From positions 67,571,522-67,635,521 of the forward strand of contig OX104117.1 in NCBI GenBank assembly GCA_944474755.1: a DNA stretch of 64,000 bases, given 5' to 3'. A program made the translations under genes and the position numbers. Positions 4,124 through 55,872 of the stretch are shown here, piece after piece (the first letter of the stretch is position 1; each line of letters opens with the position of its first letter). The notes under the pieces were generated by a model. The model saw nothing but the letters and a program-made list of their open reading frames with translations, did not search any database and was not told the DNA's origin. The DNA comes from Limnoperna fortunei (lineage: Eukaryota > Mollusca > Bivalvia > Mytilida > Modiolidae).

Positions 4124-7100
4124 TTTGAGCTCTTGTACATTGAAGTCCTATATACCATAAAACATAAGATTGGAACTACATCTGGCGGTCACTTGCCGTA
4201 TATGCAAGATCTTTACCAATATGCACAAGAATCGTTTAGAGTCAGTCCCGAGGATCATGCAAGGCTTTTGGCAAAGGCCACAGAAGAAAAGGTACTAAAG
4301 CTTTGTTTTAGAAAATAATGTCCATTAATTTAATGCGGTGTTTATTACTATTATTATACGTTCTGCATATTATGAATGCTTTAGCTATTACACTTTTAAT
4401 GCATTGTTGGCGACCGATTCATAAAGCCAATTCAGTTTTAAGTTTTTTTTATATTATTATATTAAAATATGCGCAGTCGCCTTTCTAACAAAGAACAAGC
4501 GGTGAGCACTTAAGTACACTGTTGGAGTCATGAAAATTTGGTAATTACTCAAATTTAAGCACATACGTCCGACCTGTAAGAGAATATAATGCATATTATC
4601 GTTGTCTACCGCTGCATATTGTCTTTCGTAATGGTAGTTAGAGACCTACACTATCACAATAAATTTTTGTATACATATTAATGTAACGCGCTATACACAG
4701 CAAGTGGCATTAATATTGCACAATATATCTAAAAGTGTAAAACTAGCATAAATAAGATGCTTTAATAGATAACAACCTTCAAATTATATCTTTGATATAT
4801 TTGTTTTGAAAACAAATTCAATTAGCAACAAAAACTCATACATGTATGTTCGTATTTATGCTATTCCTGAAAATTATGACAATTAATTACACTATCGATA
4901 CATATGTCATGAAGTGCTTAACAATTTATCAGGCTTTATCAAAGGTAAACACAATTATTTGCTAAATACAATACGACCCGAAACCAAGCTCTTTCTCGTC
5001 AAATTTTAAAACAACAATCCATCGACTTTGTCGGATTTCAGTAATCTCATGTATACCCAAAATCCTCTCAATATGTTTTTGTTTATTTCAAGCTGTGGAT
5101 GTTTTATTTCTTATATAACTTAACTCAGATTCTAACTTAAATATCAACGGTGTAGTCTATACACCTTAAAAATCTATTCTGTTTATGCGTACAAGATAAG
5201 ATAAATGACAAATTTTACTTTATCTGTAGCCTCCAATTGTTATTCTGAATGTAACAGTCTTAAAAGCTAGAAATTTGGAAGCAAAGGACCCAGATGGTAA
5301 TGTATGATTTATGTTATTTTAATTTAAAACATATTGATTTAAAAACTCCTCAAAGTAGAGACAATGTTTAATGACCCTACATTAATGATGCTTAATTATA
5401 GATGTTTTAGTTAGGAATCATAACATTTAGAATTGTATAAACATAATCCTCAAATGGAGTTATCCACAAAAGCTATTTATTTCATTTACAAATTAGTCAT
5501 TTAACAATAAATATGGGAGGAAACAAAAAGGTCGGTATTTGATTGTTTTCCTCACGCCTCTCACCTGTCAATTAAAAACATATTGATCGACAAACATTAC
5601 TTTTTCATGCGACAGAATTCTGTTAGGGTTTTGTTTTACCTTGCCTGTTAATTATCATTTCCCCTTAAATTAAAAATATGTTTGCGATAAAACTAAATAA
5701 AACAAACCTTTCATTACGTTTTCTGCAGTAATCGAAATTTGGCTATGGCTCTATTCTCCAGCAAAAATGTGTTTTCTCTATTTTCTAAATAGTAAATTTA
5801 TTTACGACAGTTAAGTCAGTCTTTTATTTGCATTAACTTGACAATAATACACAAATGTTCAAAATGAATGAGGACTGTGTTACAAAGGTATCATGTTCAG
5901 ACTATTATTATTGTTTCTTCTTCATCAACGTTTAATTGAATTCATTAGTTGTTGACAACTGTCAGTTCCGTGTCGTTTAAAGTATTCATAATTTTGATTC
6001 AAAAGTAAGAATTAAATTCAACTGTGATTTACAACTATTGCCAATGTTATTATCAAAAGTGGAGTTCTTATCGGGTACTACAGTTTACACGCCGATTAAT
6101 GTCGGACGTCATAACAAAAAAAACAAGAAAATAAAACAAAATAACACAAACAAACAAACTAAATGCATTGTAACTATTGTTGTAGGTTCACCAAATATTT
6201 GTCTAATATTTCTTTAATTACTATCTCGGGAGAACCTAATATGGCATTAGCTATTACTTTGTTTCTGTACTGGGTAACAAGTGGTTCCAACAAAATACTT
6301 GTATGCAACTTGTTTCCTGAGAAAGCATTTTAATTATGGGTATTGATGCATCAGTTATGGTTTGCACGGTAGCCAAATTATGTCCTATTCCATCTGATAC
6401 TACTACAGACATTGGAGTGTTGTCTAACCTGCGTCGGCACTGCTGCTTCTTTTTGTAAATTATAAATTACTTTGTGTTTTTTAATGTTTATGTGGAATAT
6501 ATGTGCGATTTTGTCATGTTCTTTCCTATGGTACACATTGTTTATTGTCTTTAATCTTTGAAGAATATCTGCTGTTGTTTTGGTCGTCTTTGCAATATAT
6601 ACACCTCGCCATAAGTTAAGCAACACCTACATTTTTTTTACTTTCAAAAATCTGAATGCATGAATATTAACTTTGTGTTATTTATGTACTAAAACTAAAT
6701 CATTCGAGCACCGAAGAGTTACTTTAATTAACTCCTTAGGTAAATCTTTAAATAGCTAAACCAGTTTGTCATACGGTAGTCAAGCACGCCTAAAACGCTT
6801 TAACGATTTAGTGTTTATCTCCTAGTCTTTTTCGACTTCATCTTTACATTTTTCAATGCCTAGATGGACATTAAGTGAAGCTGCAAAAGGGCAGATCGTT
6901 GGAATGTGTGATAGTTGGCAGAGATTGCATCAAATAGCACAACACTTTGACATTCACTTTAGTAATGTATCCCGGCTACTGAAACGTCATCGAGATGATG
7001 GAACTATCCAGGAACGTCCTAGGTCTGGTCGACCACGAAAAGCATCTGAAAGGGAGGATAGAGCACTCGTTCTTGTAGCCAAACGACAACCATTTTCCAC

Positions 7101-10100
7101 TGCAAGATATCTTCGTGACGATTGGAATATTGCAACCAGAGTCGCCGTTCGAACAGTTAACAGGCGCCTTAACAATGCAAGGATGAGAGCCCGTCGTCCC
7201 TTGAAACGTCCACTGTTGACACAGAGACATCGCCAAGCACGTTTAGAGTGGGCACGATATCACCGCCATTGGAATATTCGAAGCTAGCGACGAGTACACT
7301 GGAATGATGAAAGCAAATTCTTCTTCGGCATATTGATTGGCTCGTTTGGAGACGAGACACTGCTTACAACCAGAACAAAATTCTAGGCTCTACAGCGTTT
7401 GGCGGTGGTGGTGTTACAGTGTGGGGAGGCTTTTCATACGAATTTAAGCTGAATCTGTATGTGGTTAATGGGATAATGACAAGGGAAATAACGAAATGAC
7501 GTTATTAGCGCTATTATTGTGTCACATTTTGACAATCATCCATTTGGTAACAGACCCATCTTTATGGGTGACAACGCAAGACCTCACCGAGTAGCAATTG
7601 TACGTGATGTTATCGAAAGGGAAGCAATTGAGCATCTTGCATGGCCATTCATGTCACCCGATATGAATCCAGTTGAACATTTGTGGGATATCATTGGCCG
7701 TAAAATCAATAACAGAGCACCTGCTTGTCAAAATGGCCAAGAACTACAAAATGAATGACAGAATTTAGCACCTGATACACTTCGTCGTTTAGTTAACAGC
7801 AATAGAAGTAGAGTTAATGAACTGTACCGGAAGCGTGGTGTTTTTTAATATCTTTGCTGAACATTTTATCATTAAACAAAAAGTAAAGCGACTGTAAACA
7901 TGTTTTTTGTACCGTATAAGTGGTTTTTTCGCATGGGGAAAATTTAGCGTTTTTGTTAAAAACCTATGTGAGTTTCTTTTGGCGTAATGTGATTTTCGCG
8001 GTCCGTAGTCATAATGAATAACACTATCATTTGTCTTAATATTTCGCGAGTTTTTATTTTCGCGTCCCAACTTTTACCGCGAATATAGCGAAAATTAAAT
8101 CACCGCGAAAAAAACCACTTATATGGTATGTTTCATTTGTCATTAATGTTCAATAAATTTCTTTAAAAAATATTAAAATATATAAAATCTTCCTGAAAAA
8201 TAATAGTGTGTTGCTTCACTTATGGCGAGGTGTATATATAAAATTAGATCGTGGTGTGATTTGTTCCTTTTAACTTTGCAAGAAATGTTCTTTATCTTAC
8301 GTTTAATAAACATTTTATTAAATGCAAAATGACGGTAGATATATTAGAACAGTAAATTAGTGTTTATCAGCACTTTATTTGTAGTAATGTATCAACTATG
8401 TACGTAAATTAAAACTGCAAGCCAATGCCAATATAACTTGTACATAAAGAATATTTAAGTTTAAACTTGAATCATGTTTGTACAGAAATTTATTTTACAT
8501 ATACATCATCAATGGGCTTTATTTTGGGGGTTATTAAAAGCTATAAATTGCAATATATGTTTTTTCCATGTTAAACATATCTTACATAACAATATACTTA
8601 TATTTAACAAAAGTAAAAAAAATCATTTTATCCACAGACATGTTGATAACAATTTTCTACGAACATGTCTAATCATTTGAACTACCCCATCCATCCTCAA
8701 TGAACATGTCTAATCATTTGAACTACCCCATCCATCCTCACGTTTCAGACATTAAATGTTATCATAAATTATATTTATTACAATGTTTGATAAATTGTAT
8801 ACATCGCTAGGAAAGAAAAATCAGATGCATTTTAAAAACAATTCCTACTGTTTGGTTTAGAAATTGTTTAACTTTGGTTCCCACGTAAGTTATCCTTTTT
8901 CGTTTGCCCTTTGTGTGTACGTCTAAAAGGCAAAATATATCATTCTTGACGTAAGTAAATTTGAGGAAATGGAACTTGCAAAAACATTTTTCACGTGCGA
9001 ACGAATTCCACGTATATTTGTAAAGCATAAAATATCTTAAACCTTGTTTACGATTATTTTCAGCACTTTATAAATGTATAAAAAAAATGTATTGAGGCTA
9101 TATATGAACACATATTGTAATCATTTTTTTGTAACGGACATGTCACTATTATTTCAAAATAATTGTGTATTTTATATTGAAAAGGTGTATTTTAACACAT
9201 TAACACATGATCATCGTTTATCTTTACACAAGCGTTGTTCGTCATCTCCTATTGATTACATGGTCTGTCAACATTTAGGTTGCCGGTTCGAGTCTCACTG
9301 CAAGCAGGGTGTACTCAACTCCAATCTTTATTGACAAAAACTGCCAGTTTTTTCTACTGCAGGTTGGGTTTTTTCTCCTGATAATCAGAGAGTTGCTCAA
9401 TCGTTGGCGATAAAATCCTGTAATGTTGCTGCTTTGAGAGTTAGGCTATATAAATGATTGTGATCTACAATTGCTAGTTGGACACTATTAATGTTAGAGG
9501 AATTCGCTTTGCAATTCATTTTCAAATTCATGCAAAAATTGAATCCATACTTGTCTTGCCACAGAAAAGCAAATCGTCATAACTGATGGGTCTGCTGCAG
9601 TGGCGCTGTAGTGTGATAAGTACTTTGATGCAGGATATGGCATCTCTTTTATAAAGAATTTAAAAATCACAACACTATATTTGAAGACATATTTAAAAAT
9701 CAAGTGTCGGGCATTCCAATCGATTGAGATGGCGCTGAGAAACATCCATCTAGGGAGAAACGTACACGTCTATCGCGTAATCTTTGTTACTGCGTAAAAT
9801 TTATGCCATTTGTCCGAGAAGTATATGGATTAAGTTATGGCAATTATACCTCAGAGGAATGGCATAAAGTAGTTGACTAACATAAGAAAAGATGACACTT
9901 TCGCGATGCTTTTGGTGCCCCTAATTGTAAACACGTAGTAATAAAGAAGCCAACGGTTCCGAGAAGTGCGTATTGAATTGCAAAGAGTTTTCTTACTCAG
10001 GAATAGTCTTTCTAGCGTTTGTCAATGTAAACTTTATTTAAGTATATCTTTTTTGTTTGTAAATGGGGAATGGGCTCTATAGACTGTCAGATCTATAATC

Positions 10101-37328: not shown

Positions 37329-40300
37329 TTAATTCCATGCGCTGCGACTACTACTACCGCTGCTTCCTCCTCCCCAGCCACTATACCCTCCGCCTTGATT
37401 TGCACTGCTAGAATCATATCCACTTCCCCATCCACTGTAAGACCTGTTGCTATCAGACTTAGAACCAAGTGTTCCCCCATAACCAGGTCCTAGGTCTCCA
37501 GCCCCTGCATTTTGAGGTGGCATGCCACCCCAGCCCCCTGGTGCTTGTCCAGACAACACAGCTTGTGCTGCCGCCAACATAGCAGAATTAAGGAAGTTCA
37601 TTCCATTTATGCCCATAGACTCGTTTACACCAGTCATTGGCTGATCCCTATGATCATCCCTTCCTCTTCGACTACGATTATCTCTGTCCCTGCGATCATA
37701 TCGTTCCCTGTCCCGATCTCTGTTATCTCTCCTATAATCCCTCCCTCTATCCCTATGTTCACCCCTATCTCTTCTGTTATCATCCCGATCGCTGCCACGA
37801 TCTCGCTCCTTTGATGGTGTCTTAGGATCAGCGATGCTTACATGCACACTGCAACCCTTAATGATGTGGTCCTCCCCACATAGTCCACTGGCTATATCAG
37901 GCTCACCAAACGTTACAAACCCGAAAGCTCGAAATGGTTTGGGGATAAATGTGTCCACCACAGGACCAAATTTAGAGAAATACTGATGTAGATCGTCTGT
38001 GTTTATGGAATCTGATATCCTGGCAACAAATATCTTTCTTGACTGATGTTGTTGTCCTGCCTCCTGAAAGGAATAATATGTAAAAATCAGTGTTTCCGTT
38101 AACGCAAATTTGTTCATAATTTACGCATAAAAAAACATTTTTGACCCCCAAAAATATTACCCAGAGGGTCATCATGATGCACCAAATTATGTAACCAAAA
38201 TGAGTACTCGTCTCGGCAGCGTATGTTATTTACCGTACGCATACTTTTTGGAAAAATGTAAAAGCTGGTATCCTTTGTGTTGCCGTATAAGGAAAACGAT
38301 TATTTTCAACGGTAACCAGTTCGTTACTTCCGGAAGTCCTTGGACTTTATCTTCAACTCTAAAAGTTTTGTATTGTATCGTGGAACGATACGCTTCCTAA
38401 CTTTGAATTACACTACATTTTATTTCATTAAGGCAACACTTTAAACAAATAAACAGTCAACCGGCGATGATAAAATTGATAAGTTTATTCCAAAATGATA
38501 ATGACAAAAACGATTGTTTTTGAAGTAGGATCGAATTAGCGCACTTAGTGATCAAACACTACAAAGTGCAAACTTTTGCAATCGTCTGTTCCAAAATCTT
38601 TCAGAAATCAGCTTTAGAACGACCTTGGTTTACTGATGATCATATACTTGACAAAAATATATTATCCTTTTTGCATTCAGATATCTATTAAAGTTTCAAC
38701 AGTTTTAGTTATTTTTGCTGTTCGCTGTACCCTCTACACTACAGTACAGACCTTGTCTATCTTAAAGAAACTAACAGAAAATAATAAGCTTTCATCTTAT
38801 CTCTGCCGTGTTTCCAGAGAAGTCACACTAAATAATTGCCTTCTTTTAAATTCTGGTTAGATACACATATATGATACTATCAAATTCTTTTTTCATAAAC
38901 AATTATTGAAATCAATTGTATTAGGATATTGACATGAAACACAACGTTTTTTTCATACACCAGATATGTGTGTAATATAAGAGGTATAATTAATTTATGC
39001 ATAAATGATATTACAATTTCTCTAAATGTTATTTTAGGCTGTGGTATATATTGTTTACTCTAGTTTGCAACATTGTCATGATTGTTCGATACAAGATTTT
39101 TATCATCAAAACTGAATAATAAATATGACCCTTGAAAATCTTATTTGACTCCCTAAACTCAGCTGCAGAGGGTCATCATGATACCCAGATTTGAAAAGTT
39201 TCAAAAACACTGAAAATATATATTATTAACATCTGTTGTGGATTTCTTTCAACCTAAAGTTGCAATGTATTCAGTGATAGCATTTACATGTAATTTGCAC
39301 CATATCATCTTAACAATCCAGCATTAAATTTTGTATTGTTTTAAACATCCTCTACAGCAAACCATACATGTACAAAATATTTTTAATGTCACCAAGTTCT
39401 CTTAATATCAGGTTAAAATAAAGACTTTTAAAGGGAATGTAAGGGCTAAAAAAATTTTTTGATATGTTGATTGTACACTTTTACTTATGTGAAAAATGAT
39501 CCATCTAAATAAATATCTCATCAGGTATTAATTATACAGCTGTTTTTCTAATCAAATTATTGCACTATGGAGAGGCTAATTATCATATCTAGCGGAAGTA
39601 GAGATATGACGTATGATAGTCAATTCCTGTTGATGCAGCTGTTAATCTTATACACACACAGTAGTAAAAATGCCAGAGTGCCAAGCAAAATTTTGTACAG
39701 TTGTAAGAGGTCAAGGGATTTCAACATTTTCAATCCCAGACCCGAAGAAGGAATATGAACGATGTGCCAGATGGTTACATAATCTTGGAAATGCTAAATT
39801 GGACATTAAAACTTTTAAACATTCCTTTAACATGATAGTTTGTGAGAAACATTTTGAGCCTAGTTGTTTCAAGGAAGATATGCAAGTAAGTATCCTGATA
39901 TATGTATTTTTATATTTTATATTTTTCAGATCAAATGTATTGAGTAATATTAAAGCATAGTCATACTTTTTGGAATATAATTTGATCTAATTAAAAAAAA
40001 AATCAAAAATACCTTTAACATTTCATATATGACAGGTGTTTTCTCCACAACAATATTTCTTTTATTATATATATTATTATAAAATACATAGATGAATAAA
40101 ACATTAAAATTGTGTTAAAAAACTTCAAATATCTTATATGATTTACATTTTGTTTTCATAATTTTAGGCTAAAGTAATGGGTTATACACCAAAGAAAAAA
40201 TTTCTAAAAGATGATGCTATTCCAACTATATTTGCTGATACCAAACCTATTCAAGAAAGAAAGTCCAGTAAAAGTAGAAAGGAGAAAATTGAAAAACAAG

Positions 40301-43300
40301 AGGTAAGCAGAATATGTATTATTATGAGACGCAAAGAAGTACAAAAGGGACATTTGAATCCTGAAAGTCCAAAATCTGTCAACATTAAAGAAAAAATAAC
40401 CAAACAGCATACATAAAACTTGTATTAGTATAGTTTATATTAACGTTTTTCTTGCACATTTTTTTTCATTTAAAAAAAATTGTATTATACTATTTTAAAT
40501 AAACATGAAGGATGAAAACTTAACTTTTTAAAAATTTTAGCTGATTGAAACCCTTCTTACTGGAAATGAAAACCCTGAAGTTGAAATGCAACATCCTGTT
40601 ACTCCATCAGTTAAAAGAAAACGAAAACAGATAATGCCAAGTATATCTTCAAAGAAATCAAAGGTAAATACACTACAATTAACAGCTTGACCCATTTCTG
40701 ATCTCTCCAAAGATTAATTATATCACATAATGAATTAGATAACAGTTCCAGCTGGAGAGGCATTCCTTACAGCTACCATTTCTACCACTAAATCTTTCTT
40801 ATCAGTAAATAAATAATCAAACACCATTAATACTTAATGTGACCTTTGTTTGCAGTAGGTTAATTTAGGGTTGATGTTTTTGGTTAAAGACAGGCTGGAA
40901 CATTCTGTGTTATGAAATGATAGTATAATTTAATATTTTTGATTCAATGTAATAAAAAATCTTTTTTTTTTGCATAGGTCACCTCCACATACTCCAGTAA
41001 AACAGATTTTGGCATCCAGGTTGGACCAACTTATGTTGATAAATCTGTAAGCTGTAACATTATAACTGAGATTCCAACAACTCATTGCACCAAGTGTTTT
41101 GAGAGAGATAATCCTTCACTTGCAGTGAGTGACCATTCATATTGTAGTGGAGAATTACAATATATTCATGATAATTCTACTCCAATTAAGAAAAAAGATA
41201 CAATTGATCAGAACAGTTCAGCTGATGAGAGCGATGTTGATGACTTACTGTCACCTGTCAAAACTGATGTTAATGATAAATCGTTTTGTTTGTCTGACTT
41301 TTCAGAAGATTCACCTTTGTCGTCGCCTGACAAAAATGTTAATTCTGAAAAGGTGGAAGCTAGCTCCATATCGGAAGATACCAAGCTTATAGTATTTCTT
41401 AAATGCTTAACAAGTCTATTTCAACTGGTTATGTGTCGTATTTGTCAAAGTCCAATTGACACTGATGATATAAAAACAACAGTGGAAGGTTCTTGTATTA
41501 TAGCCCATTTCACCTGCCTAAACAACCATTCATTCAGTTGGGAGTCACAGCCTTATATAGGAAGACAGCCTGTAGGAAACATTTTAATGACAGCTGCAAC
41601 TTACTTATCAGGAAATACCTACTCATCTATTTCTGCATTTTTTAAAACTCTTAATTCCAAGTTTATTAGCAGGTCTGCATTTTACGATATTGCAAACAGT
41701 TTTGTTATTCCTTCCATTCATAAATTTTGGTGTCAACAACAAGAAATAATTTTACGGAATATGCTGGGTAGGAAATTATGTTTAGTTGGTGACGGTAGAT
41801 GTGATTCCCCAGGATTTAGCGCTAAATACTGTAACTATACATTAATGGAGGCTTCAACATCAGCCATATTAGATTTCAACATTGTTCAGGTAACTGAAAC
41901 AGGTGCATCATCACGAATGGAACTGGAGGGATTTAAAAGAACCATTTTAAATCTTCAAGAATCCAACCTTGAAATAGACATTATTGCAACAGACAGACAT
42001 GTGCAAATACGAAAATATATTAAGGACAATCTTCCAACTGTGTCTCATCAATTTGATGTTTGGCACATGTCAAACAGCATAAGGAAGAAAATTGTAAAAG
42101 CAAGTAAGAAAAAGGATTGTGAGGCCTTGGTACCCTGGATCAGAAGTATTTCCAACCATATATGGTTTTGTGCAGGGAATTGTGATGGTGATTCGGACAA
42201 ACTTATTGAGATGTGGAAGTCTATCCTTTTCCACATTAGAAATATTCACACATTTGCAGGTAAAAAGTTCAATAGATGTGGGCATGGTGACCTGTCTGCT
42301 GACTGTCAAAGGAAGAAAAAATGGTTAAAAGCAAAAAGCAAGCCATTTAAAGCACTAGAGTCTGTTATTAATGACACACGAGTTTTGAAAGATTTACAAC
42401 AGTTGAACCTATTTTGTCATACTGGAGACATTGAAGTATTCCACTCAATGATGTTAAAGTATGTGCCAAAAAGACAGGAATTTCAATATCCCCAGATGGT
42501 TGCCAGATCCCAACTTGCCGCTCTGGACCATAACTTTAACTTGAGGCGAAAACAAAAAGAGGCGTCAGATGGGAGTTTGCAGTTTGCCCCAGTTTTCCCT
42601 AAGGCAACAAGTAGATGGTGTGTTAAAAAACGATATGCTGACAAGGACTATGGGTTTCGGGATGAATTAATGGAACTTATAGTAAAGGCAAAAATTATGG
42701 GTGAAAAAACTGTTACCCCACATCAAATTAAACAAGCCAATATTCTGCCAAAAAACATTGCAACAAAACCAGCTCCACCGAAGGAAACACTTGTAGAGGC
42801 ACACGTTTCAAGATTCAAGATAAACTAACTGTTATAAATTGTAATATAATCTTGCAAATACATGTGTTTTCTGTGATGCATATTATATTTCTTTATTGAA
42901 AACAACAGTATTTATATTAATCTGTATCTTCTGATTCTGAAGAGGATATGTCTGATTCACTGTGAAATCCTTCATAATGTCCTGATTCTTCAGGAAAAGT
43001 GTTTCGAATTTTCACAACAACACAAGCTGGTAATATAACTCGGTTCTTGCGTCCAAGGGGTTGCCCTCTTCTTACCCAGTTAACAAATTGACGATATGCC
43101 ATCAGCCTGCTTTGTCTGAAAAAAGGTATGACAATTAAAAAAAAATTAAGAGTAAAAACAATGTTGAATTGCCCATAAATTCTAAAATTAGTTCGAGTTT
43201 TTTATCACTCTATCATTTCTATTGCCCTGTTGCTATTTCATATTACAATTACTATTGATCAACATATATTCCTTTGTATTTTATAAAGTTGATGTAAAAA

Positions 43301-46300
43301 TGTTGCCAAAAATATAATGTTAAAACTACCTGTTTGTCAGTGCATCAGGAGCTCTGCCTGTCATTCTCTTGTATCGCATAAAAATAACATAAGCAGTTTC
43401 CAAAACTGTTCTATTCAAACATATTAGTTCAAAGTCTGTATGTAGACAAATACAAGAATTTTCATCTGTTATATAATGTTCATCATAATGCTGAAAGTTT
43501 CTGCAACAAAGATTTTCTCTTCTTTTTTGTAAAGGTTCACAGTGTCCACATGTACACACATTGTTTGTCTCTTCTTCACATTGGTTTTCACATTCTATTC
43601 CTTTAGCAGCTTCTAACTCTTCCTCGGTAAACTCAGGCTCATACAAATATCCAACACAATTTTGTTCTTTTGAATCACAGGTTATATTATCATCACTTGA
43701 ATCCATAGCTTTCTAGTAATTTATTTAAGTAGCATATAATTTATTAGCTGTTGATAATGCCAATGAAACAGGAATTGACTATCATACGTCATAAACAGGT
43801 GTGCCTGCTGGGAAATCTCTGATAAGGGAGATAAATATATTTACAATATGTCTGCCTCCAGAAAAGTGCAATTAAGATAAAATAATCACTGATTAAATGA
43901 TAATTAGAAGTAGTATGAATAAATGAATTGCAGATGTGGATATTAATAGATTCAATCTTTTATATGCCAAAAAATAATTTTTGACCTTGCGTTCCCTTTA
44001 AAGCATTGATAAGTCTACAGGGTTGGAACCATTTTTGTTCACAAATCTAAAAAAATTAGTTGCAACAATTATTTCACTCTGAGTCCTTTTGCCATCCTTG
44101 CTACTTACATTAGAGTTTGGTATATTTACTTCACACCATCTCCCGTCAATCATGTGTCTTTGTTGTGCTAGGCAATTTATCTGTGCTTCAATATCATGGA
44201 ATCTTATGAAGCCAAATCCTTTAGACTTTCCTGTCCGAGGATCCATCTTCACCTGAAATGCATCAAACACAAAATTAACAAATGACTCAATTTATGTTCT
44301 TCATGTTGGGCAATATATCCAAAAAAATCCATGTCAACATTCTACATTATACTCGGCTTTTTACACACATAACATCTTAAAACACACTGAAAGTGGCAGA
44401 AAAACATTTTTCAATTTTAAAAAATCTGCAACAAATCACCAATATTCATTTTTACATTATATTTGATAGGTTAAAAGTTAAAACAAATTTCAATCAGATA
44501 TTAAGTTTATTTCTCAGGAATTTTTTAATTTTAGCAATTTAGGGGCATGTAGTAAATCTTAATTAAATGGCAGCATGACTACACCAACGTCTCAATTTTA
44601 AATGAATAAACAAGGTAAATCTGTGAGCTACTAGTAATGCTCGCTAGTGATGCCCCACTTTCACAAAAAGTATTCGGTAAACAGGGGTAGATGATCAAGG
44701 GGCATAAATGGCTATACACCATATGGTACTCTAGGTCAATAGGATAAAGCAATAAGCAAAATATTAGGCTTCTGCATCCTATAGTTGATAAGACAAGTGT
44801 GGACACAGAAAAACGTCTCGCCTGAATTCAGCATCAGTAACGAAAATAAATTTCGTCATAAGCATTACGTAAATAGCATTAATTATGAGCAGCTGCCTGT
44901 ATACCAAATATTGTCACCATACTATGCATAGTTACAGAGGAACTGTCCTAATACAAAAACTTTAACGTAGTAGCTGAACCCTGAAATTGAGGTCAAGGTC
45001 AGGTGACACCTACCAGACAATCATGTACTATTCATCAGCAACCTATATACCAAATATTATCATCCTACCATGCTTGGTTACAGGGGAACAGCAGTAACCT
45101 AAAAACTTTAACGTAGTCACTGGACTGTGAAATTGAGATCAAGGTCAAGTGGCACCTACCAGACAGTCATGTACTATTCATCAGCAACCTATATACCAAA
45201 TATTGTCATCCTACCATGCATAGTAACAGAGAAACTGCAGTAACACAAAAACTTTAACATAGTCACCGGACCGTGAAATTGAGGTCAAGGTCAGGTGACA
45301 CCTACCAGACAGTCATGTACAAATGTACTAGTCATCAGCAACTTATATACCAAATATTGTCATCCTACCATGCGTGGTAACAGAGGAACTGCCGTAACCC
45401 AAAAACTTTAACGTAGTCACTGGACCGTGAAATTGAGGTCAAGGTCAGGTGACACCTACCAGACAGTCATGTACTAGTCATCAGCAACCTATACACCAAA
45501 TATTGTCACCCTACTATGCGTAGTTATGGAGGAACTGCCGTAACCCAAAAACTTTAACGTAGTCGCTGGACCGTGAAATTGAGGTCAAGGTCAGGTGACA
45601 GGTGACTGACTGGCAAGTACTCATCATAAGCTACCTCTGTACCAAATTTGATGGACCTAGGGCTTGGGCTTACAAATATATGAAGCAAGATGTCTAGTGT
45701 TTACGCTGCCGCCACCGGATTCCCATACATATGTCTCGCCTCCAGCGATTTTCATCACAGGCGAGACAAAAACTGACAAAGAAATTTTTGAAATGGACGG
45801 ACAAATGAACAGACGGACAAGGGTAAAACAGTATACCCTCCTCTTCTTCAAAGCAGGGGGTATAAGAAACTGTTCCTCTTTGCAGGTATCAAATTAACCA
45901 ATTCGAGTAAGGTTACCTAATAAACAGATCAGCTTAGATTATCTGCCCAACACTAATAATATCTTTGAACATAACTGACATAAGCTTACAGCAACAGATA
46001 AATGTATTCTCGACAAACCTGAGCTAACACTAATTCTCCAAATTTGGAAAAATATTCCTTCAGCTCTTCCTCTGTACTTTTGTAAGGAAGACCCAATACA
46101 ATCAAATCACTGCATTTCTTTTCAATCTTCTTTGTTTTAGCTGAAGGATTTTCTGTCTGGTCCTCTCCCTTTCTTTTGTTATCTAAAAAAAAACAATCGA
46201 GACATTCTGTATAATATGCACTGATTGATTTTGATTTACTCCTATTTTCAGCATTTTTACTGCTAAATTGCAGTGCATAATTTTGGAATCGATTTGGTAA

Positions 46301-49300
46301 AAAAATCTCATTCTGGATCATTTTAGTTACATATTCACAGCACTATATGGAATACCATTTATACTGATATGATTCCGAAATTATTCACTCCACATTTTAA
46401 ACTTTGTCAACAATGCAATGAAAATGAAATCAATTAATTAGGCATTGTATAAATGTCAGCTGAATGGCGGAGAAGAATTAATTATTAATTAAACCAAAAC
46501 AACAGTTAAATAGTAGAAAAATATGTATAAATCCCATTGGTGTTTTTGTTCCATTTCGGGAAATGATACCTCCTTGTAGCTGCATCGAGAAAAAAAAATT
46601 ATACTAGTATATATAAGTAGCTTACTAGTACATGTAAATTCATATACTTCACAAATCAGTAGAATAAATTTTAAAATCATTTTCAGGGCTCACGCTGGGT
46701 CAAAATTATAGGGAAAAGTCACTTCTCGTTTGGGTAACTGACAGGGAGAAGTGAGGATAGAGCAGGGAGAAGTGGGTGGACAACAGGTAGAAGTTGCATC
46801 ATATGTTGTGAAAGTGTCCTGTTTACTTTGTTTTTTTATTTTTAAATTAGTGTTGGAATTTGCATTTTTATTTTTATGTTTATTAGCAGTTTAATTTATT
46901 GAGGATAAAGTATCAAAGATTTGAATTAACTATTCAGTATACTTATTTCACACATTTTCATAAATACATGTATTAAACATAACATGTACAATAAAAAAGA
47001 ACCAACTGTCACAAAACTGTTCATTAAAATAAATGTTTCTTTCTCATCATTGATACACAATTTGATTGATTTAATGAAGTACTATTCATATGCTATTAGA
47101 ACTATAAGTAGAAAATTACATCATTGTGACACATACTAAGTATATCATGTAAATGGTAAAATTCACTATTAAAAGTATTTAAACATATTTAACCTAAATG
47201 TGTTTTAAGTAATTATACTGCCAAAAGACTATTTTTACTACGTCTCTATCATTGCAAAACTCATTTCACCACTATCAGCGTAGTATATTTGCAATCTCCA
47301 GCACCAAATTCATATCCTCTCCGGAAATTTTCACAAGTTTTTGTGCTCTGAACTGGTTTCCGGTCGTATTTTAAACCTAGGCTTTATTTACCAAATAAAG
47401 TTTAAAAGGGTACCAGTTCAACTTTGGCGCGTAAACATAATAAACATGACACTGTATCAAAAATATGAAGATTTTTTACCAAAATGGGAATAAAATTTAA
47501 AAGGCGACAATAGGCAATTCTACAAAATGAAAGACGACTTCACTTCGCTTTTGAAGATGATCGAAGGCCCTTGTCGCCCTCCAATGTGAGCCCTGATTTT
47601 ACATAAAAGCGAGCATCACAGAAGCGAGCTATACGGTTACATGCGTGTGTGTAAACAAAGTCACGTGATCCATATGAACAAATCCATTTCAGATGACAGC
47701 TGAGCTATCCGAAGAAAATATTGTAGATGAACGAAAAACTATACATGTATATGTTGTATAATATAAAAGTAGACAAAAATAATTTTTACATTGATAAAAT
47801 TAAGTGTTTATTTTTTAATTACTACAAAAATGCCAGACAAATTTTCTGAAACGTATTCAGGTATTTGAAATTGAGTTTTGTGACGTCACCAAAACATTAA
47901 AAAAGACGTAACGTCATCAATGGAATGTAGAGGCACTGTTAGGGGGGTCTGAAGTAACAACATGAACAATGTGAGATGCGCCTACATTCATATAAATTTA
48001 TTGGTAAGTTAAACCTCACTAGTGATACCCCCCCTTTCACAACTAGACAAAGTCGATCTAGCGATCGCTGATACCCCCGCTTTTGTGAAAATTTCTAACG
48101 TTTTTCGTGGACTGCGACCTTGAAATTTGATGGATTTCCCCCAAAATCAAAAGGCTTTTTACCAACCTGATATATAACAATATCCCAAAGATTCATTCAA
48201 ATCTGATGCAAACTTTTTGAGTTATTGTCCGTAAACAACTTTTATGTTAAAATTTCTAACGTTTTTCGTGGACTGTGACCTTGAAATTTGACGGATTTCC
48301 CCCAAAATCAATAGGCTTCTTACCAACCTGATATACACGATATATGACAATATCCCAAAGTTTCATTCAAATCGGATGTAACCTTGTTGAATTATTGTTC
48401 GGAAACAACTTTTTTGTTAAAATTTCTAACGTTTTTCGTGGACTGTGACCTTGAAATTTGACGGATTTCCCCTCAAAATCGATAGGCTTCTTACCAACCT
48501 GATATATAACAATATCCCCAAGTTTCATTCAAATCGGATGCAAACTTTTTGAGTTATTGTCCGGAAACAACTTTTATGTTAAAATTTCTAACGTTTTTTG
48601 TGGACTGTGACCTTGAAATTTGACGGATTTCCCCCAAAATCGATAGGCTTCTTACCAACCTGATATATGACAATATCCCAAAGTTTCATTCAAATCGGAT
48701 GTAAACTTTTTGAGTTATTGTCAGGAAACAACTTTTATGTTAAAATTTCTAACGTTTTTTGTGGACTGTGACCTTGAAATTTGACGGATTTCCCCCAAAA
48801 TCGATAGGCTTCTTACCAACCTGATATATGACAATATCCCAAAGTTTCATTCAAATCGGATGTAAACTTTTTGAGTTATTGTCCGGAAACAACTTTTTTG
48901 TTAAAATTTCTAACGTTTTTCGTGGACTGTGACCTTGAAATTTGACGGATTTCCCCCAAAATCGATAGGCTTCTTACCATCCTGATATATAACAATATCC
49001 CAAAGTTTCATTCAAATCGGATGTAAACTTTTTGAGTTATTGTCCGGAAACAACTTTTTTGTTAAAATTTCTAACGTTTTTCGTGGACTGTGACCTTGAA
49101 ATTTGACGGATTTCCCCCAAAATCGATAGGCTTCTTACCAACCTGATATATAACATATCCCAAAGTTTCATTCAAATCGGATGTAAACTTTTTGAATTAT
49201 CATCCGGAAACCAAATGTGGACGGACGAACGGACGGACGGACGGACAGACGGACGGACGGACATGAGGACCACTATATACCCCCGACTCTGTCGAGCGGG

Positions 49301-52300
49301 GGTATAAAAAGTATTCCGTAAACAGGAAGTAGATGACCAAGGCACATAAATCTCTATACACCATATAGAACTACATGTATAGGATAAAGCAATTTGCAAA
49401 ATATCTGGCTTCTGCATTTTATAGCTGCATAGAAAACTGTGACAGAAATTTTTGACAGATGGACAAGGGTTAAACAGTATACCCCACTTCAAAAGGGGGG
49501 GGGGGGCATAATAATATTATCATAATAATATTATTCTTCATTGTTATACCTCTCAGACTATATAAAGCTTTAACATTGAAAAATAGTAGAATTAGTTTTT
49601 TGATAGTATGTGTATGTTGATTGTTCAAAATATGGGTGTGACTTCTTACCACACAGGCACCATCAAAATACCACAATAGTTTTACAGGTTTCTTACTTAA
49701 TTTTATGAAGAAATAATGACTTTCATGCGTTTTGTAGCTTCAATCAAAGTAGCAGAAACAATTTTTTATCAATTTCATGTACCATTGATAACTGATCATG
49801 AAAAAACAACCACTGCATATTGATGTAGGTACCCACATATTAATTACATGTGATAAAAAGGCATAGAACACATTAATTCATTTAAAATAACAAATAAATT
49901 AATGATAGAAATAAACACCGATATCATGCAGTTTTGTAAGTTCCTATGGTTGTCTTTTCATGATCATAAATGACTCGTTATCAATGATATTTGAAACAGA
50001 CTTAATCAAATGTTTATTCTGCTTTTAATAATGTCTTTGCTGCTTTTGTAGCATCTTTTTTAAAATTTAACAAAGATGCTACAAAAGAAGCAAACAGTCT
50101 GCGTTGTTATCCACAAGCCTGATGCCCAAGACTAGTAATTTTCAGCTCGGACTAGTAAATTTTCTTTATCGCTAGCCCGGCTGGACTAGTAAAAAAGGTA
50201 GCTGGTCAAATCGGCCCACTGTAAAATCGCCCCCGTCTAAAACGCCCCCATTTTTGCAAAATTGCCCCCCCTGTAAAATCGCCCCCTGTAAAAACGCCCC
50301 CACCTAAAGCAAAATCGCCCCACTTAACAAAATCGTCCCATTCAAAAATGCCCCCACTTTATGCAAAATCGCCCCCAACAAAACGACCCCATCTTCAACA
50401 CTTTTAAAAATTACTATAGTATAAAATTGTCAAGTTGTTCAAATATTTTCTACTTTTAGGAGTTAATTGTCGCTGATAAAAATTTAGAAATGTTTTCTTA
50501 ATAATGATCAATTATGTCGTTATTTTGCTTATTAACAATAAAACAATTATGATTATTACATTAATGAACTATATCAGTAATGATTCTTTTGTAATTACGA
50601 TTAAATAATCAAAAATTTGTTAATCTTAATAAACATATATAAAAAATACAAGAGACTTTATTGGTGCATGCACCAAATATTCGGGCCGTAAATAATCAAG
50701 TGTTTACTGCATGAAAGCATTCCTTCAATGGTGTAGATAACAAACACTGAAACAGGTATACAAACTGTCATATCCGAATTTATTAATTCAATGAGGCATG
50801 AAATGTAGAACAAGGTTATTTCATTGTTTAATAGAGAAAAAAATTCAAGAAACATCCACACAAACAAACTGCATAATGTTACGTAGTATCTTACCTAGCT
50901 ACAATAATGTAGCTCTTTTTTTTTTTTTTTTTTTTTTTTATATACACCAAACTTGCATTTTAGAAAATCAACTTAAACTTTATCTAGTAATTTACAGATG
51001 AGTAGAAAATTATTTATTGTGCCAGATGGGTGTAGTTTTCAACAAAGTTGAAATTAGTGTTTAACTTAAAATTTGATATAAATTAGTTTTTTTAATGACT
51101 GAGCACCATAAATAAATGAAAACCATAAATAACACAAAAAAAACATAAAAAAAGTTTTACAGCTTTAAAATAAACAATAAATTTGAATAGTTACATTTCA
51201 CGTACTTTGTGATATTTTACAACATTCACACTAAACATAAAAATAATACTGATAGAAGAAAAATAATAATGATGTTTATGTTGGTTTCAATTGATGTGCA
51301 GTTACAGAAATAGTGAAAAAGAAATATATATCTCTCTCTCTGTCTGTGTTTTTTTTTAAAACAATATGCATCCTTGAAAATAAGTATGGCACCGTGGGAA
51401 ATGGATTTCTCCTATACAATTAATTTAACATTTATACTGTTACTTTATTATCTACAAACTTTAAACAATATTAAGAATAATTTTAAAACGTGTCCACTGA
51501 CTAAATTTAATATACAGTTCAATGAAATACAAAGTGTAGGTCAGTGTGCAATATAAAAGCAATTTGTTACCTTGAAGGCTATTTAAACAGACTGTCTGAT
51601 TTTATTAAGATTATTTTTGTATCCACTTTTTTAGAAACAGAATATGCTATTTTGGAATTTAAAAAAAATAAATGTTATTTCATGTAAACCGTATCATTGT
51701 CATGGTAAGGTTGTACGAACATGGTACATTGTTTCCAGTCTAATCTGAAAATAGTTGCTATTTGACCGACTTTCACTTTTTTCAAACCTACAATTAACTA
51801 AACGTTGTATTTCTGATATTTTAGTATTCTCAAAATACATTATACATAGATCTAAATGTATTGTCAGTATTATATATATCAGCAAATGTACGTAGACGTG
51901 ATCTAGACAACATGTTCTAAAAATAACATCGTAAACAAATGTGACAGACTTTTGCTGACTCATAATTAACTAAAATTTGCATTGCAAAATACAACATTAA
52001 TCTCAAAATATCTACTATATATTATGCTTTAGTTATAACACCGGTGCAACTCTAATAATTAATTTTTTAATTATAATTTAACAGCAGTAAATTAATCTAA
52101 CATCCGCAGCAAATCATGAAACGTTTTCAAACTCATATCATATGACGGACCGGCTTAGTGCCGGCCCGTAATAAACAAGAAGTCTTCAGTCAGCCAACAC
52201 GCACTAACAACAGTTGTGGTCTCAAAGCCTTTAAAGCACGTCACATTAGAATTATGTGTTTGCCTCTTGTTTAATAGTGCAAATTAAAAAACAATAGGGC

Positions 52301-55300
52301 ATATTGTGTTATTTGTACACATTGTTATCTTGTTATCTGCTAAAATAAAAAAGTTGAAATTGTTGTCTTCGTCTTTTCATATAATAAGAAGAACGATTAA
52401 AAACTGTAAACATACATAACAAACAAAACCGAAGAAACAGCACAAATTTATATAATTATCATTTATCTTCACTGAGATCATAACATATAATCACAGAAAA
52501 ATGAAATTATGACCTAATGAGCGATTTGTGTAAGTGGTACGATTTTGCTAAATGTGGGGGCATTTTTACACGACGAGACTTTAGAGTGGGACGATTTTGC
52601 AAAAAATGGGGGGCGTTTTTGACGGGGGCGATTTTGTCAAGTGGTGCGATTTTGCTTCAGGTGGGGGCATTTTTACAGGGGGGCGATTTTACATTAGGGC
52701 GATTTTGCAAAAAGTGGGGGCGTTTTTGATGGGGTCGATTTTACCGTGGGGCGATTTGACTTGTATTCGTAAAAAATATAACTTCCCTTTTATGTTATTT
52801 GAAATTTAAACATATTTGGAGTTCAAAGTATTATGAAAAAGATCGTGTACGAAGTCTCAACTAATTATACATTTATCCAGAGGAGATAAACAGAAGGAAA
52901 CGAAAACCAGTCGCTAGTTCCAGTACTTCAATCTGTCTGATAACCAGTAAAAAGTGGACCAACACGTACACAGTAATGAAGGCAATTGTTTATAAAACGA
53001 AAAGACTATCATGTTTCCCCTGATTAATTATATATCTTTAATGGCATAAAAATGTTTTAGTTTATTTCACATAATCAATAAAGTTATTAAAATAGATTTA
53101 TGTCATTGAGTTTTCTTCACAACACCGTGTTGGTACACTTCGATCTTTTTGGTAATTAGAAAGACCGGAGACCAGTCACCATGTGTCAACAAACATAAAA
53201 AAACGTAAATTAAAATAGTATCACAAGTTTTCCTTGTTTAATAAATTTTATGCTATTGCTAATGTAAAATCCTTAAAACTAGCTGAAACAAAAGTTTTCA
53301 ACCAGCTGACAACGGCTCTGTAAATGACCTTTGACTGAGGGAGAGGAAATTAGTTCTTATTTTTATATTTGGCTGTGCCAAGCTGTAGCATGCACAGTGG
53401 ATTTATTATCAAAGCCCATTTCTAGACTATTTTATGGGTGTTTGTGAGTTTCCTTGAATACCCTTCGGGTTTTCTAAATTTGCGAAAAATTTGATCTGAC
53501 ATGACACCCAAAAATTTTATGTGATATTAGTGAAATGATTTGGCTCATTTTGAGGGGTCTCTCATTACTCAATGAAACTTGGTGCCCAAGGCAGAGCAAA
53601 ATATGTTAATAGTTTCCCCAATATGCAAATAATTAAGAGGCCATTGTCAATTTGACAACGGCTCTGTACATGCTGTAAATGACCTTTGACTGAGGGAGAG
53701 GAAATTAGTTACTATTTTGATATTTGGCTGCGCCAAGCTGTAGCATGGACAGTGGATTTATTATTCAATGGAATTTGGATATTTGAGCTGCATTTAAAAA
53801 TCAGTTTCATACAGAATTTATAAATAAATTTATTTATATAGTTGGTTAAATGTATAGGATATTTTTCAGCTAATTGTGCAAAGCCCATTTCTGGACTATT
53901 TTATGGGTGTTTGTGAGTTTCCTTGAATACCCTTTGGGTTTTCTAATTTGCGAAAAATTTTATCTGACATATGACACCCCGAAAATTTAATGTGATATTA
54001 CAGGGGTCGCGCTGGGCTTCGCCAATGTCGCCAATTGCGATTTTTTTTCATTTGGCGACAAAATATTGCGTCTGGCGATTTTTTTGGCGCCAAGGTTTTA
54101 AATTTATCGGTAATCGGCGATTGCATCATTAAAGATCCTTTGTATGCTCTTATGGTCGTAAATACACGTGTATTGTGTAGTATCCAGTGACATGTGTGTT
54201 ATTTGGAGTTATTAAACGGAAATCGGCAATAAATGAATCAACAAAGTTGTATGATTGAAAAGCAGCTTTACCTGCATCACATTTGAGTAGACGTGTAATA
54301 AAACAATTGATGCTGTTAATTAATTTTATAAAAATAACAAAACAAACATATTTTTGTAGTAATATTTTTTTGATAATGTAATTAATAAAATACAGGTATG
54401 AAAACTGACGTCGTTGTTGAGTGATTTCCGGACCGGATGTCCGTCTTAATTTGGTAATTAGAAAACTCTTACACATGCGTAGTTCTATTTTCAGTATTTC
54501 CGGTTTTATGTTCATTCACGGGAATAGATGTTTCGAATAAATTACTGTAAAATTTTTGGTTTTCTGCCAACAAGAAATCACTCACACATCTTTTCATGAT
54601 TAAAATACAATTAGTGTAGGGGCTGCTGGAGAGCAAACTTTTGAAAAATTGAATTAAGAGTCCGGCAAACTTGGATTTCGTCCGACTTTACAGAATATGT
54701 CACACATAATGTTAAAAATTTTTCGCCATGCCATATAGTGATCTAGTGATTTCTAATATGGCGACACTTTTACAAAACTGGCGACGGAAAATTGCAGTTG
54801 GCGAATTTTTTGGCGCCAGCTTTTTAGAATCCAGAGCAGCCCCTGTATTAGTGAAATGATTTCGCTCGTTTTGAGGGGTCTGTTATTACTGAACGAAACT
54901 TGGTGCCAGAGAGCAAAAAATGTTAATAGTTTCCCCAATACGCAAATAATTAAGAGGCGGTTGTCAGCTAAAACCCTTTCAGGTATGCTCAGAATGCAGG
55001 ATTTTGCGTCTAAAGATTTCAAAATTTTTAGGGGGGAGGCATGCCCCCAGACCCCCATAGCAGGTTGGGGTCGCTTCACGAACCTCAACTGGTGTCCGAC
55101 TAGTTGAAAATTTTGAGGACTAGTCAATTTAAATTTTTACTAATCCAGTACACTGGTACCCTAAAAAGTTTTTGGTGCAGACTGAGCAAAGACATTATTC
55201 CTACATAAAATAAAGTTAAAAACCTATGAAACTGTAAAGAAAGTGTATAGTGTGGTATTTAGTGTGGTATTTTGATGGTGCATGTGGTAGCCTGGTAAAA

Positions 55301-55637
55301 AGTCATACCGTCAAAAAAGGGGCATTTTTGAATGAAATTTTATATCCAGTCACACCATTTCAATGTAATGCCCGATTTAACAAATTTGTTCTATAATACC
55401 TTTGGAGAACACAACAATGTACACATGGTCTCCCCAATTATTATCTGGTGGATATAGCATTCCCTCGTGTAGTCGTACACCTCGAAAATTTCTTGTCGAT
55501 GGATTTCTGTACTTCAAGCCGCAAGCACCAGGAAATTGTGCAGCCAATGTTGACAACAATAAAGTCGCGTCCTCTTCACTTGGGATTTCGATAGGTTCGT
55601 CGTTTTCGTCTTCACTGACCTGAATGTACTGTGTCAT
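37329..55637 (-). CDS. TARDBP: TAR DNA-binding protein 43 (TDP-43), complete, 4 coding exons
   Basis: Exons on the minus strand: 55637-55400, 46182-46019, 44252-44109, 38063-37329. All junctions are GT/AG with matching phases, giving 426 residues (human 414). The first exon begins [19 protein letters not shown] and carries the N-terminal oligomerisation domain ([13 protein letters not shown]). Exon 2 opens with the NLS (NKRKGEDQ...KTKK) and RRM1 (RNP2 LIVLGL). Exon 3 has RNP1 KGFGFIRF and HMIDGRWC. Exon 4 has RRM2 (RNP2 KIFVAR, RNP1 RAFGFVTF), an Arg/Asp-rich segment, the helix-forming [16 protein letters not shown] and a Gly/Ser/Trp-rich tail. TDP-43 binds UG-rich RNA and controls splicing and RNA stability, mainly in the nucleus. 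I chose the ATG that matches family N-termini; an upstream in-frame ATG would add 53 residues not conserved in the family. Introns contain Kolobok, Helitron-like and hAT-like elements. Confidence 0.95.
37644..37808 (-). other. Arg/Asp-rich mixed-charge segment of TDP-43
   Basis: Residues about 268-322, directly after RRM2, are almost wholly D, R, E, N, G and Y (for example [20 protein letters not shown]). Vertebrate TDP-43 has a Gly/Asn-rich region here instead. Mixed-charge RD/RE repeats in other splicing factors promote nuclear-speckle association and condensation. The segment is in frame within a conserved exon, so it is real protein sequence. Confidence 0.85.
38064..39427 (-). other. TARDBP intron 3, part outside the Kolobok element
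   Basis: No exon was seen. A 17-bp sequence, CAGAGGGTCATCATGAT, occurs at 38162 and again at 39166, suggesting two fragments of one old dispersed repeat. Confidence 0.5.
39432..39630. repeat. Left inverted terminal region of the Kolobok element
   Basis: The tip AGGGAATGTAAGGGC and the inner block TATGACGTATGATAGTCAAT (start of the 26-bp match) mirror the right end. The inner block ends 39 bp before the transposase ATG, so this arm probably contains its promoter. Confidence 0.8.
39670..42828 (+). CDS. THAP-domain Kolobok transposase, 4 exons, 774 residues
   Basis: Exons: 39670-39885, 40168-40302, 40541-40663, 40978-42828. All are phase 0 with GT/AG introns. Residues 1-85 form a THAP zinc finger: MPECQAKFC gives C-x4-C, then RWLHNLG and CEKHF (C-x2-H), with DAIPTIF in exon 2 as the closing P-T-I-F box. 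A basic, probably nuclear-targeting stretch follows (KRKRKQ, KKSK), then an acidic linker. The catalytic region has [11 protein letters not shown] (about residue 429), ATDRH (about 497), [13 protein letters not shown] (about 517), NHIWFCAGN and [10 protein letters not shown] (about 644). I infer D, D and E in the first, second and last as the catalytic triad. C-x2-C and C/H pairs near residues 311-345 could bind zinc. There are no stops or frameshifts, so it may be active. The superfamily call rests on THAP plus TTAA plus these motifs. Confidence 0.87.
42917..43706 (-). CDS. P2X7-receptor ballast-domain-like protein in the Kolobok element, 2 exons, 191 residues
   Basis: Exons: 43706-43330 and 43115-42917, joined in phase through GT/AG. 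After an acidic N-terminus (residues about 1-45) come [29 protein letters not shown], then [32 protein letters not shown] and SGHYEGF. In order and spacing this follows the cytoplasmic C-terminal zinc-binding ballast domain of vertebrate P2X7 (C-x-C-G-x-C, CC, AYR, W, LPSC, IRKEFP, G-x-Y-x-G-F). There is no channel part or membrane segment, so this is not a receptor. The protein ends in an acidic Ser-rich tail. It converges on the transposase gene, with 88 bp between their stop codons. Its role in the element is unknown; a zinc-dependent DNA- or protein-binding accessory is one guess. Confidence 0.82.
43768..43997. repeat. Right inverted terminal region of the Kolobok element
   Basis: It mirrors the left arm. 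Its inner 26-bp block ends 61 bp before the ATG of the minus-strand gene (43706). Both arms therefore likely act as matching promoters for the two convergent genes. Confidence 0.8.
44641..45866. mobile_element. Helitron-like host repeat, copy 1, split by element A
   Basis: The left end is TCGCTAGTGATGCCCC; the right end is a stem-loop with arms ATACCCTCC and GGGGGTAT (45832-45864). The inner left part (AAAAAGTATTCGGTAAACAG, TAGGATAAAGCAAT, GGCTTCTGCAT) and right part (GAAATTTTTGA, GGACAAGGG.AAACAGTATACC) match copy 2 at 48016-49508. Element A copy 2 separates them. No coding sequence is present. It lies in TARDBP intron 2. Confidence 0.7.
44793..45768. mobile_element. Pearl/Helitron-like element A, copy 2 (5 tandem units)
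   Basis: It has the same ends as copy 1 at 17031: ACAAGTGTGGACACAG on the left and the GTCTCGCCT/AGGCGAGAC stem-loop at 45733-45767. The core has markers at 44952, 45098, 45244, 45398 and 45544, spaced 146 bp except for one unit 8 bp longer. Copies 1 and 2 therefore differ in unit number (7 against 5). Confidence 0.78.
46684..47595. mobile_element. Non-autonomous hAT-like element, CAGGG ends, 912 bp
   Basis: The left end CAGGGCTCACGCTGGG mirrors the right end (read inward CAGGGCTCACATTGGA). ATTTT duplicates on both sides (46679-46683 and 47596-47600), a 5-bp target site. GGGAGAAGTG-type motifs repeat just inside the left end. No transposase frame is present. CAGGG ends are typical of hAT elements, although most make 8-bp duplications; some hAT lineages with 5-bp duplications are described. 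Confidence 0.75.
48088..49215. repeat. 161-bp minisatellite core of element B
   Basis: AAAATTTCTAACG starts at 48088, 48249, 48419, 48581, 48742, 48903 and 49064 (spacings 161, 170, 162, 161, 161, 161). The second unit has a 9-bp insertion (TATACACGA). Confidence 0.92.
49218..49263. repeat. (ACGG)n microsatellite
   Basis: About eleven GGAC units with three substitutions directly follow the 161-bp array. Confidence 0.9.
50205..52760. mobile_element. 2.56-kb element with about 200-bp inverted ends made of C-rich subrepeats
   Basis: The left end (50205-50396) is a run of variants of AAAATCGCCCC and AAAACGCCCCCAC. The right end (about 52512-52760) is the same sequence inverted, ending GGGGCGATTTGAC, with the order of subrepeats largely conserved. 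The interior is AT-rich with a 24-base T run (50916-50939) and no transposase. No target duplication was clear. Subterminal repeat clusters like this can be transposase binding sites. The superfamily is not assigned. It lies in TARDBP intron 1. Confidence 0.75.
53307..54972. repeat. 346-bp tandem duplication, second unit invaded
   Basis: Unit 1 starts TGACAACGGCTCTGTAAATG at 53307 and unit 2 starts at 53653 with the same phrase. Both continue through GACCTTTGACTGAGGGAGAG and GGGTGTTTGTGAGTTTCC. Unit 2 has about 115 extra bases at 53764-53880 and a hAT-like element at 54001-54845; its remainder resumes at 54851. Origin unknown. Confidence 0.8.
54001..54845. mobile_element. Non-autonomous hAT-like element, CAGGGG ends, 845 bp
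   Basis: The ends are CAGGGGTCGCGCTGG and, inward from the right, CAGGGGCTGCTCTGG. TATTA is duplicated (53996-54000 and 54846-54850). The uninterrupted first copy of the host repeat at about 53520 reads GTGATATTAGTGAAATG with one TATTA, which proves the insertion and its 5-bp duplication. TGGCGA/TCGCCA motifs cluster inside both ends. The termini resemble those of the element at 46684 (CAGGG.TC.CGCTGGG), so the two are probably one family. Confidence 0.85.
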
Positions 55638-55790
55638 TTTCTGATCGCTAGAAGAAGTATAACATGCGTCTAACTCTTCACTTTCAGGTTGAACAGAACA
55701 CGCCATAAAAGTTTGACCTAGATTGACAATAAAACACACAGTAGATCTAAGGGTTACACTAATCTCCTGAAACGGTATCGTAACGACTCG

Positions 55791-55872
55791 CCCCACTCTC
55801 GAGTCGCCCCATCATGAGTCGCCCCACATTTAATAACGAGTCGCCCCACTCAATAACGACTCGCCCCAGATC
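55791..55872. repeat. Cluster of five GACTCGCCCCA-type subrepeats just upstream of TARDBP exon 1
   Basis: Five copies of G-A-(C/G)-TCGCCCCA lie within about 80 bp, starting roughly 155 bp upstream of the chosen TARDBP ATG. The style resembles the C-rich ends of the 50205-52760 element, but the unit differs and no inverted partner was found in the window. It may be a solitary transposon end lying in the promoter or 5' UTR. Confidence 0.6.

Follow-up and report, generated by a model that had tools for sequence, protein, structure and literature searches.

A Kolobok transposon in Limnoperna fortunei with a second frame for a P2X7 ballast-domain protein, a likely accessory of transposition

What did the ballast domain of P2X7 do before it became part of a receptor? 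P2X7 is an inflammatory receptor, and its ballast, which binds GTP or GDP and zinc, is described as having unknown functions (PMC9859053). Kojima and Bao (2022; PMC9587614) report that Kolobok transposons of the Kol0 lineage encode a transposase together with a second protein, KolX, that has the ballast fold and is similar to human P2X7 476-595, and they conclude that P2X7 originated when a P2X4-like gene was fused to KolX. Here we describe a further member of this published, KolX-carrying kind of Kolobok, an element of 4566 bp at positions 39432..43997 of a 64,000-nucleotide stretch (the window) of Limnoperna fortunei contig OX104117.1. As a transposon in which both frames are open, it is a concrete object on which to ask the opening question. 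The preliminary description of this DNA had proposed that Kolobok elements may have spread the ballast domain as an accessory protein, and that vertebrate P2X7 may have captured it from one of them. The first proposal is supported both by the window copy and by Kojima and Bao (2022; PMC9587614); the description knew of no earlier account of the link, which has been in print since 2022. Since that paper states both the link between KolX and the ballast and the fusion that made P2X7, the central link is already published. What is new from the window copy and its relatives is a repeat common to the upstream regions of both genes, a motif in the tail of KolX and a division of the GDP contacts into some that are kept and others that are lost, and these three features narrow the choice of future experiments.

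The limits of the element can be read directly. A TTAA target-site duplication flanks it at 39428..39431 and 43998..44001, its termini are AG...CT, and terminal inverted repeats, the two arms of repeat I2, lie at 39432..39461 (plus strand) and 43968..43997 (minus strand); the inverted arms, 35 nt long with the TTAA flank included, are 83% complementary. A TTAA duplication and 5'-RR...YY-3' termini, both found here, are features of the Kolobok superfamily (PMC9587614). Taken alone, the outer-end pattern is weaker evidence for the ends, with two exact matches in the window and 15 of 100 shuffles reaching two matches at three mismatches. A perfect 27-bp subterminal inverted repeat had its two copies as the sole matches in the window at up to three mismatches, compared to none in 100 shuffles. 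Its copies have the same orientation towards the start codons of the two genes, one lying 38 bp 5' of the transposase start codon (39605..39631, plus strand) and the other 60 bp 5' of the KolX start codon (43767..43793, minus strand). We noted that this repeat, which contains TGACGTAT, is perfect, whereas the outer ends retain only 83% complementarity; preservation by function or gene conversion might account for this. A THAP-type site, TxxGGGx[AT], matched once in the left arm and not in the right arm.

Within these ends, the plus strand carries a transposase gene, for which four predicted exons with GT-AG introns yield an open frame of 774 aa (here and for KolX, the splice sites are predictions from sequence). 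Exon 1 (39670..39885), which makes an in-frame splice join, encodes a THAP domain, detected by Pfam in the ORF that starts there (PF05485, 3.2e-9) and complete with its C2CH, P, W, F and AIPTIF residues; a THAP DNA-binding domain is usual in Kolobok transposases (PMC6004289). Exons 2 (40168..40302) and 3 (40541..40663) continue in frame, and exon 4 (40978..42828, stop codon included) encodes the DDE catalytic core with DxxH and the H2CH zinc residues, such that the translation contains D430, D497, D518xxH521 and E644 as well as H577, H582, C592 and H594. We aligned the transposase with 20 of 120 listed matches (142 were found) and used 35 of the 120 in the alignment for modeling; the predicted model of a relative matched a DDE-transposase fold.

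KolX lies on the minus strand, tail to tail with the transposase gene, and the two stop codons are 88 bp apart. Its two predicted exons, joined at a GT-AG intron, yield an open frame of 191 aa. Exon 1 (43330..43706) encodes an acidic tail with YLYEP (residues 20-24) and the zinc cysteines C51, C53, C56, C67, C68 and C85, and exon 2 (42917..43115, stop codon included) encodes AYR, LPAC (with C157), IRNTFP and YEGF. Pfam assigned residues 38-176 of the joined protein to P2RX7_C (E 2.4e-19; 70.4 bits versus a cut-off of 23.5), its single Pfam family, and detected no P2X channel domain in the 191 residues. All four PDB sequences that matched KolX with E < 0.001 are P2X7 (rat P2X7, E 2.2e-6). Moreover, P2X7 was the sole PDB fold match, at E < 3, of a predicted model of a KolX relative, and it is by way of this model that KolX is predicted to have the ballast fold. 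The seven cysteines (C51, C53, C56, C67, C68, C85 and C157) align with the zinc-coordinating C477, C479, C482, C498, C499, C506 and C572 of rat P2X7. Among the aligned relatives (45 of 120 listed matches out of 140 found, selected by us for the most part from the longer ones), each cysteine of the first zinc cluster was kept in 41 to 42 of 43, each of the CC pair in 44 of 45, and C506 and C572 in all 45; in these aligned KolX-type proteins the seven are thus near-invariant. The nearest protein matches come from rock oysters (Saccostrea), with 60% and 62% across 84-85% of the query. The preliminary description had named the TTAA flanks and inverted ends at 39432..43997, a THAP transposase on the plus strand and a spliced minus-strand ORF of 191 residues with the landmarks C-x-C-G-x-C, CC, AYR, LPAC, IRNTFP and GHYEGF, and all of these were confirmed.

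Because the KolX gene lies wholly within the ends and shares the 27-bp upstream repeat with the transposase gene, we are confident that KolX belongs to the element, and that this is a Kolobok with KolX as its own gene; a ballast-domain protein encoded inside the ends beside the transposase is also what was described for Kol0. We examined the point at which the KolX frame is predicted to be split, and found that, of the 120 listed matches, 11 have alignments whose last position is exactly residue 126 and two have alignments that begin at 123, which fits an intron common to the relatives. Against a shared intron, other close relatives (for example P0007, P0010, P0011 and P0015 to P0018), which may be either spliced models or intronless copies, align across the splice point. 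Scans of viral_contigs and genome_contigs for viral or prokaryotic relatives with the KolX alignment, using a single peptide pattern each, gave 2 and 21 matches, none of which was confirmed, and a search of a viral fold library gave 29 matches with a best E of 3.2. In a 304-aa predicted protein (P0052), a ballast domain is joined to a reverse-transcriptase domain (PF00078); either the gene model is chimeric or a ballast gene adjoins a retroelement.

How might such an element use its two proteins? If it behaves as others of its family, the THAP domain of the transposase would recognize the ends, and the enzyme would cut and paste the element into TTAA. The position of the 27-bp repeat suggests that it acts on both genes, either by being a promoter element that the two have in common or by offering the transposase a subterminal site. 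The composition and conservation of KolX suggest that the zinc core forms its folded body and that the acidic tail with [YFLM]EP docks a partner, which could be the transposase or a host factor. On balance, we favor the interpretation that KolX is a small, zinc-stabilized accessory protein with a helping or regulating role in transposition; that it acts specifically as a positive cofactor we judge to be about an even call.

The tail itself is a consistent feature of these proteins. The N-terminal part was net acidic in 40 of 41 relatives (pI was computed for 41 of the 45), and the core had a median pI of 8.1 (range 4.9-10.0; 8.95 in the window copy). [YFLM]EP was present in the N-terminal tail of 37 of 40 relatives (five of the 45 rows were too short N-terminally), whereas in 500 shuffles this count averaged 2.7 and never exceeded 8. 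The motif often takes the form PYxFEP. N-terminal parts of ballast proteins were reported to be without obvious homologs (Rump et al. 2020; PMC7016195), and we met no mention of [YFLM]EP in the parts of the literature consulted, in which no search was aimed at the motif. We considered that KolX, instead of being a positive cofactor, might be a brake on transposition or might connect the element, as an adaptor, with a host pathway such as silencing escape or repair. Helper and brake fit the present evidence alike, and an acidic tail with a short motif kept in so many relatives suits the binding of a host protein equally well. However, KolX is not known to have a partner, and the upstream repeat in common with the transposase gene suggests that the two are co-expressed, as would be expected at least equally of a helper. 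Thus, we regard a brake or adaptor as possible but somewhat doubtful.

We also considered that KolX might be a guanine-nucleotide-binding protein, from which P2X7 inherited its GDP site as such. Rump et al. (PMC7016195) list five GDP contacts in rat P2X7 (R546, H547, R574, R578 and K583) and suggest GDP binding by other ballast members as a possibility. Two of these contacts are indeed kept across the relatives, R546 in all 45 and R578 in 39 of 44. In contrast, the other three are mostly replaced, with R574 in 0 of 44, H547 kept in 12 of 45 and K583 in no more than 2 of 43, and the window copy, which retains only R546 and R578 of the five, has V, L and E at the places of R574, H547 and K583. 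Furthermore, the cavity in P2X7 is partly made by a helix of the neighbouring subunit (PMC9859053), which a lone KolX may lack, and the two kept arginines may be structural. We therefore consider it quite unlikely that KolX is a guanine-nucleotide-binding protein of this sort. The pattern of two kept and three replaced contacts, seen here in a larger set of aligned sequences, agrees with the retention of the R546 and R578 pair beyond deuterostomes reported by Rump et al. (PMC7016195); since the same pair was reported there, the full set of GDP contacts does not define the ballast family. A broader proposal is that the ballast began as a phosphate-gripping tool of the transposon, in which KolX would bind nucleic acid or a nucleotide by the arginines that were afterwards built into the GDP site of P2X7 and the [YFLM]EP tail would dock the transposase, and that P2X7 inherited the zinc core and the grip but not the tail; this too we think unlikely.

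The DNA on either side of the element belongs to another gene. On the minus strand at 37329-55796 of the window is a TDP-43-like gene, of which one ORF has a TDP-43_N domain (55377-55796; Pfam 4.9e-34) and three have RRM_1 domains (45986-46321, 43998-44270 and 37329-38117). In the PDB, the piece at 43998-44270 matches TDP-43 best (1.4e-16), and we presume that the other RRM pieces are part of the same gene, from their order and from the make-up of TDP-43. With pieces of this gene on both sides of the element, it most likely sits in an intron of the TDP-43-like gene, between its two RRMs; KolX has the same orientation (minus) as this host gene. The idea that the ballast ORF is a host gene between chance transposon ends, or was picked up once by a single element, can appeal to our evidence being from one copy and to a conserved linkage, termed ancestral synteny, that ballast genes were reported to have with two markers across invertebrates (Rump et al. 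2020; PMC7016195), but we set it aside as highly improbable because KolX is within the ends, the 27-bp repeat is common to both genes and the host gene on both sides of the insertion is TDP-43-like, and because the same gene pair is found in the Kol0 lineage according to Kojima and Bao (PMC9587614). Rump et al. (PMC7016195) also mention a tick protein that joins a THAP domain (printed TAHP) to a ballast; a text search of that paper for 'transposase' gave 0 matches. Both the reported synteny and the tick protein may reflect Kolobok elements rather than host linkage. Elsewhere in the window, an ORF of 143 aa on the plus strand (6856-7287) with Pfam HTH_Tnp_Tc3_2 (1.2e-15) is part of a Tc1/mariner-type transposase.

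With KolX read as a gene of the element, we return to the origin of P2X7. It is likely, by the published inference of Kojima and Bao (PMC9587614), that this same KolX core was captured by the P2X4-like gene. In our domain tree (37 rows, comprising 35 named proteins, the window protein and rat P2X7, over 127 columns), rat P2X7 was on an unplaced branch 4.6 changes long and the bootstrap was not settled; thus, the tree argues neither for nor against capture from a given lineage. Window KolX fell within a set of six mollusc rows, Saccostrea and Mytilus (98/95), in keeping with a bivalve host, and four Saccostrea echinata proteins fell in three places, though most of the tree is open. The ballast domain was found across animals by Rump et al. 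(2020; PMC7016195). In the view of Kojima and Bao (PMC9587614), fish Nanor is a domesticated KolX, and a few piggyBac families have KolX-similar proteins without most of the cysteines.

The window element most resembles, in its described features, the Kol0 lineage represented by Kolobok-1_XT, with which it shares a transposase, a ballast-domain KolX, the TTAA duplication and 5'-RR...YY-3' termini, although it is another family. KolobokP, KolobokD, KolobokE and KolobokH likewise pair their transposase with a second protein or domain, but their companion is a nuclease or helicase (PMC9587614). KolobokP differs further in that its direct repeats are long and its first D is followed by a CCHC finger (PMC9587614); the window transposase lacks such a finger, since the stretch from D430 to D497 contains just two cysteines (C433 and C443) and not a single histidine. 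Nanor and other ballast (ZCD) proteins are, like KolX, short proteins with a C-terminal ballast domain, but they were presented as host genes (PMC7016195), whereas KolX here lies within a transposon. With the ballast of P2X7 itself (P2RX7_C), KolX has in common the seven zinc cysteines, AYR, LPxC, IR..FP and Y.GF, and the predicted fold of its relative. In contrast to P2X7, KolX is a stand-alone protein of 191 aa with an acidic N-terminal tail and no detected channel domain, it differs at three of the five listed GDP contacts, and its domain is split by a predicted intron, while the ballast of P2X7 is encoded by one exon (exon 13; PMC7016195).
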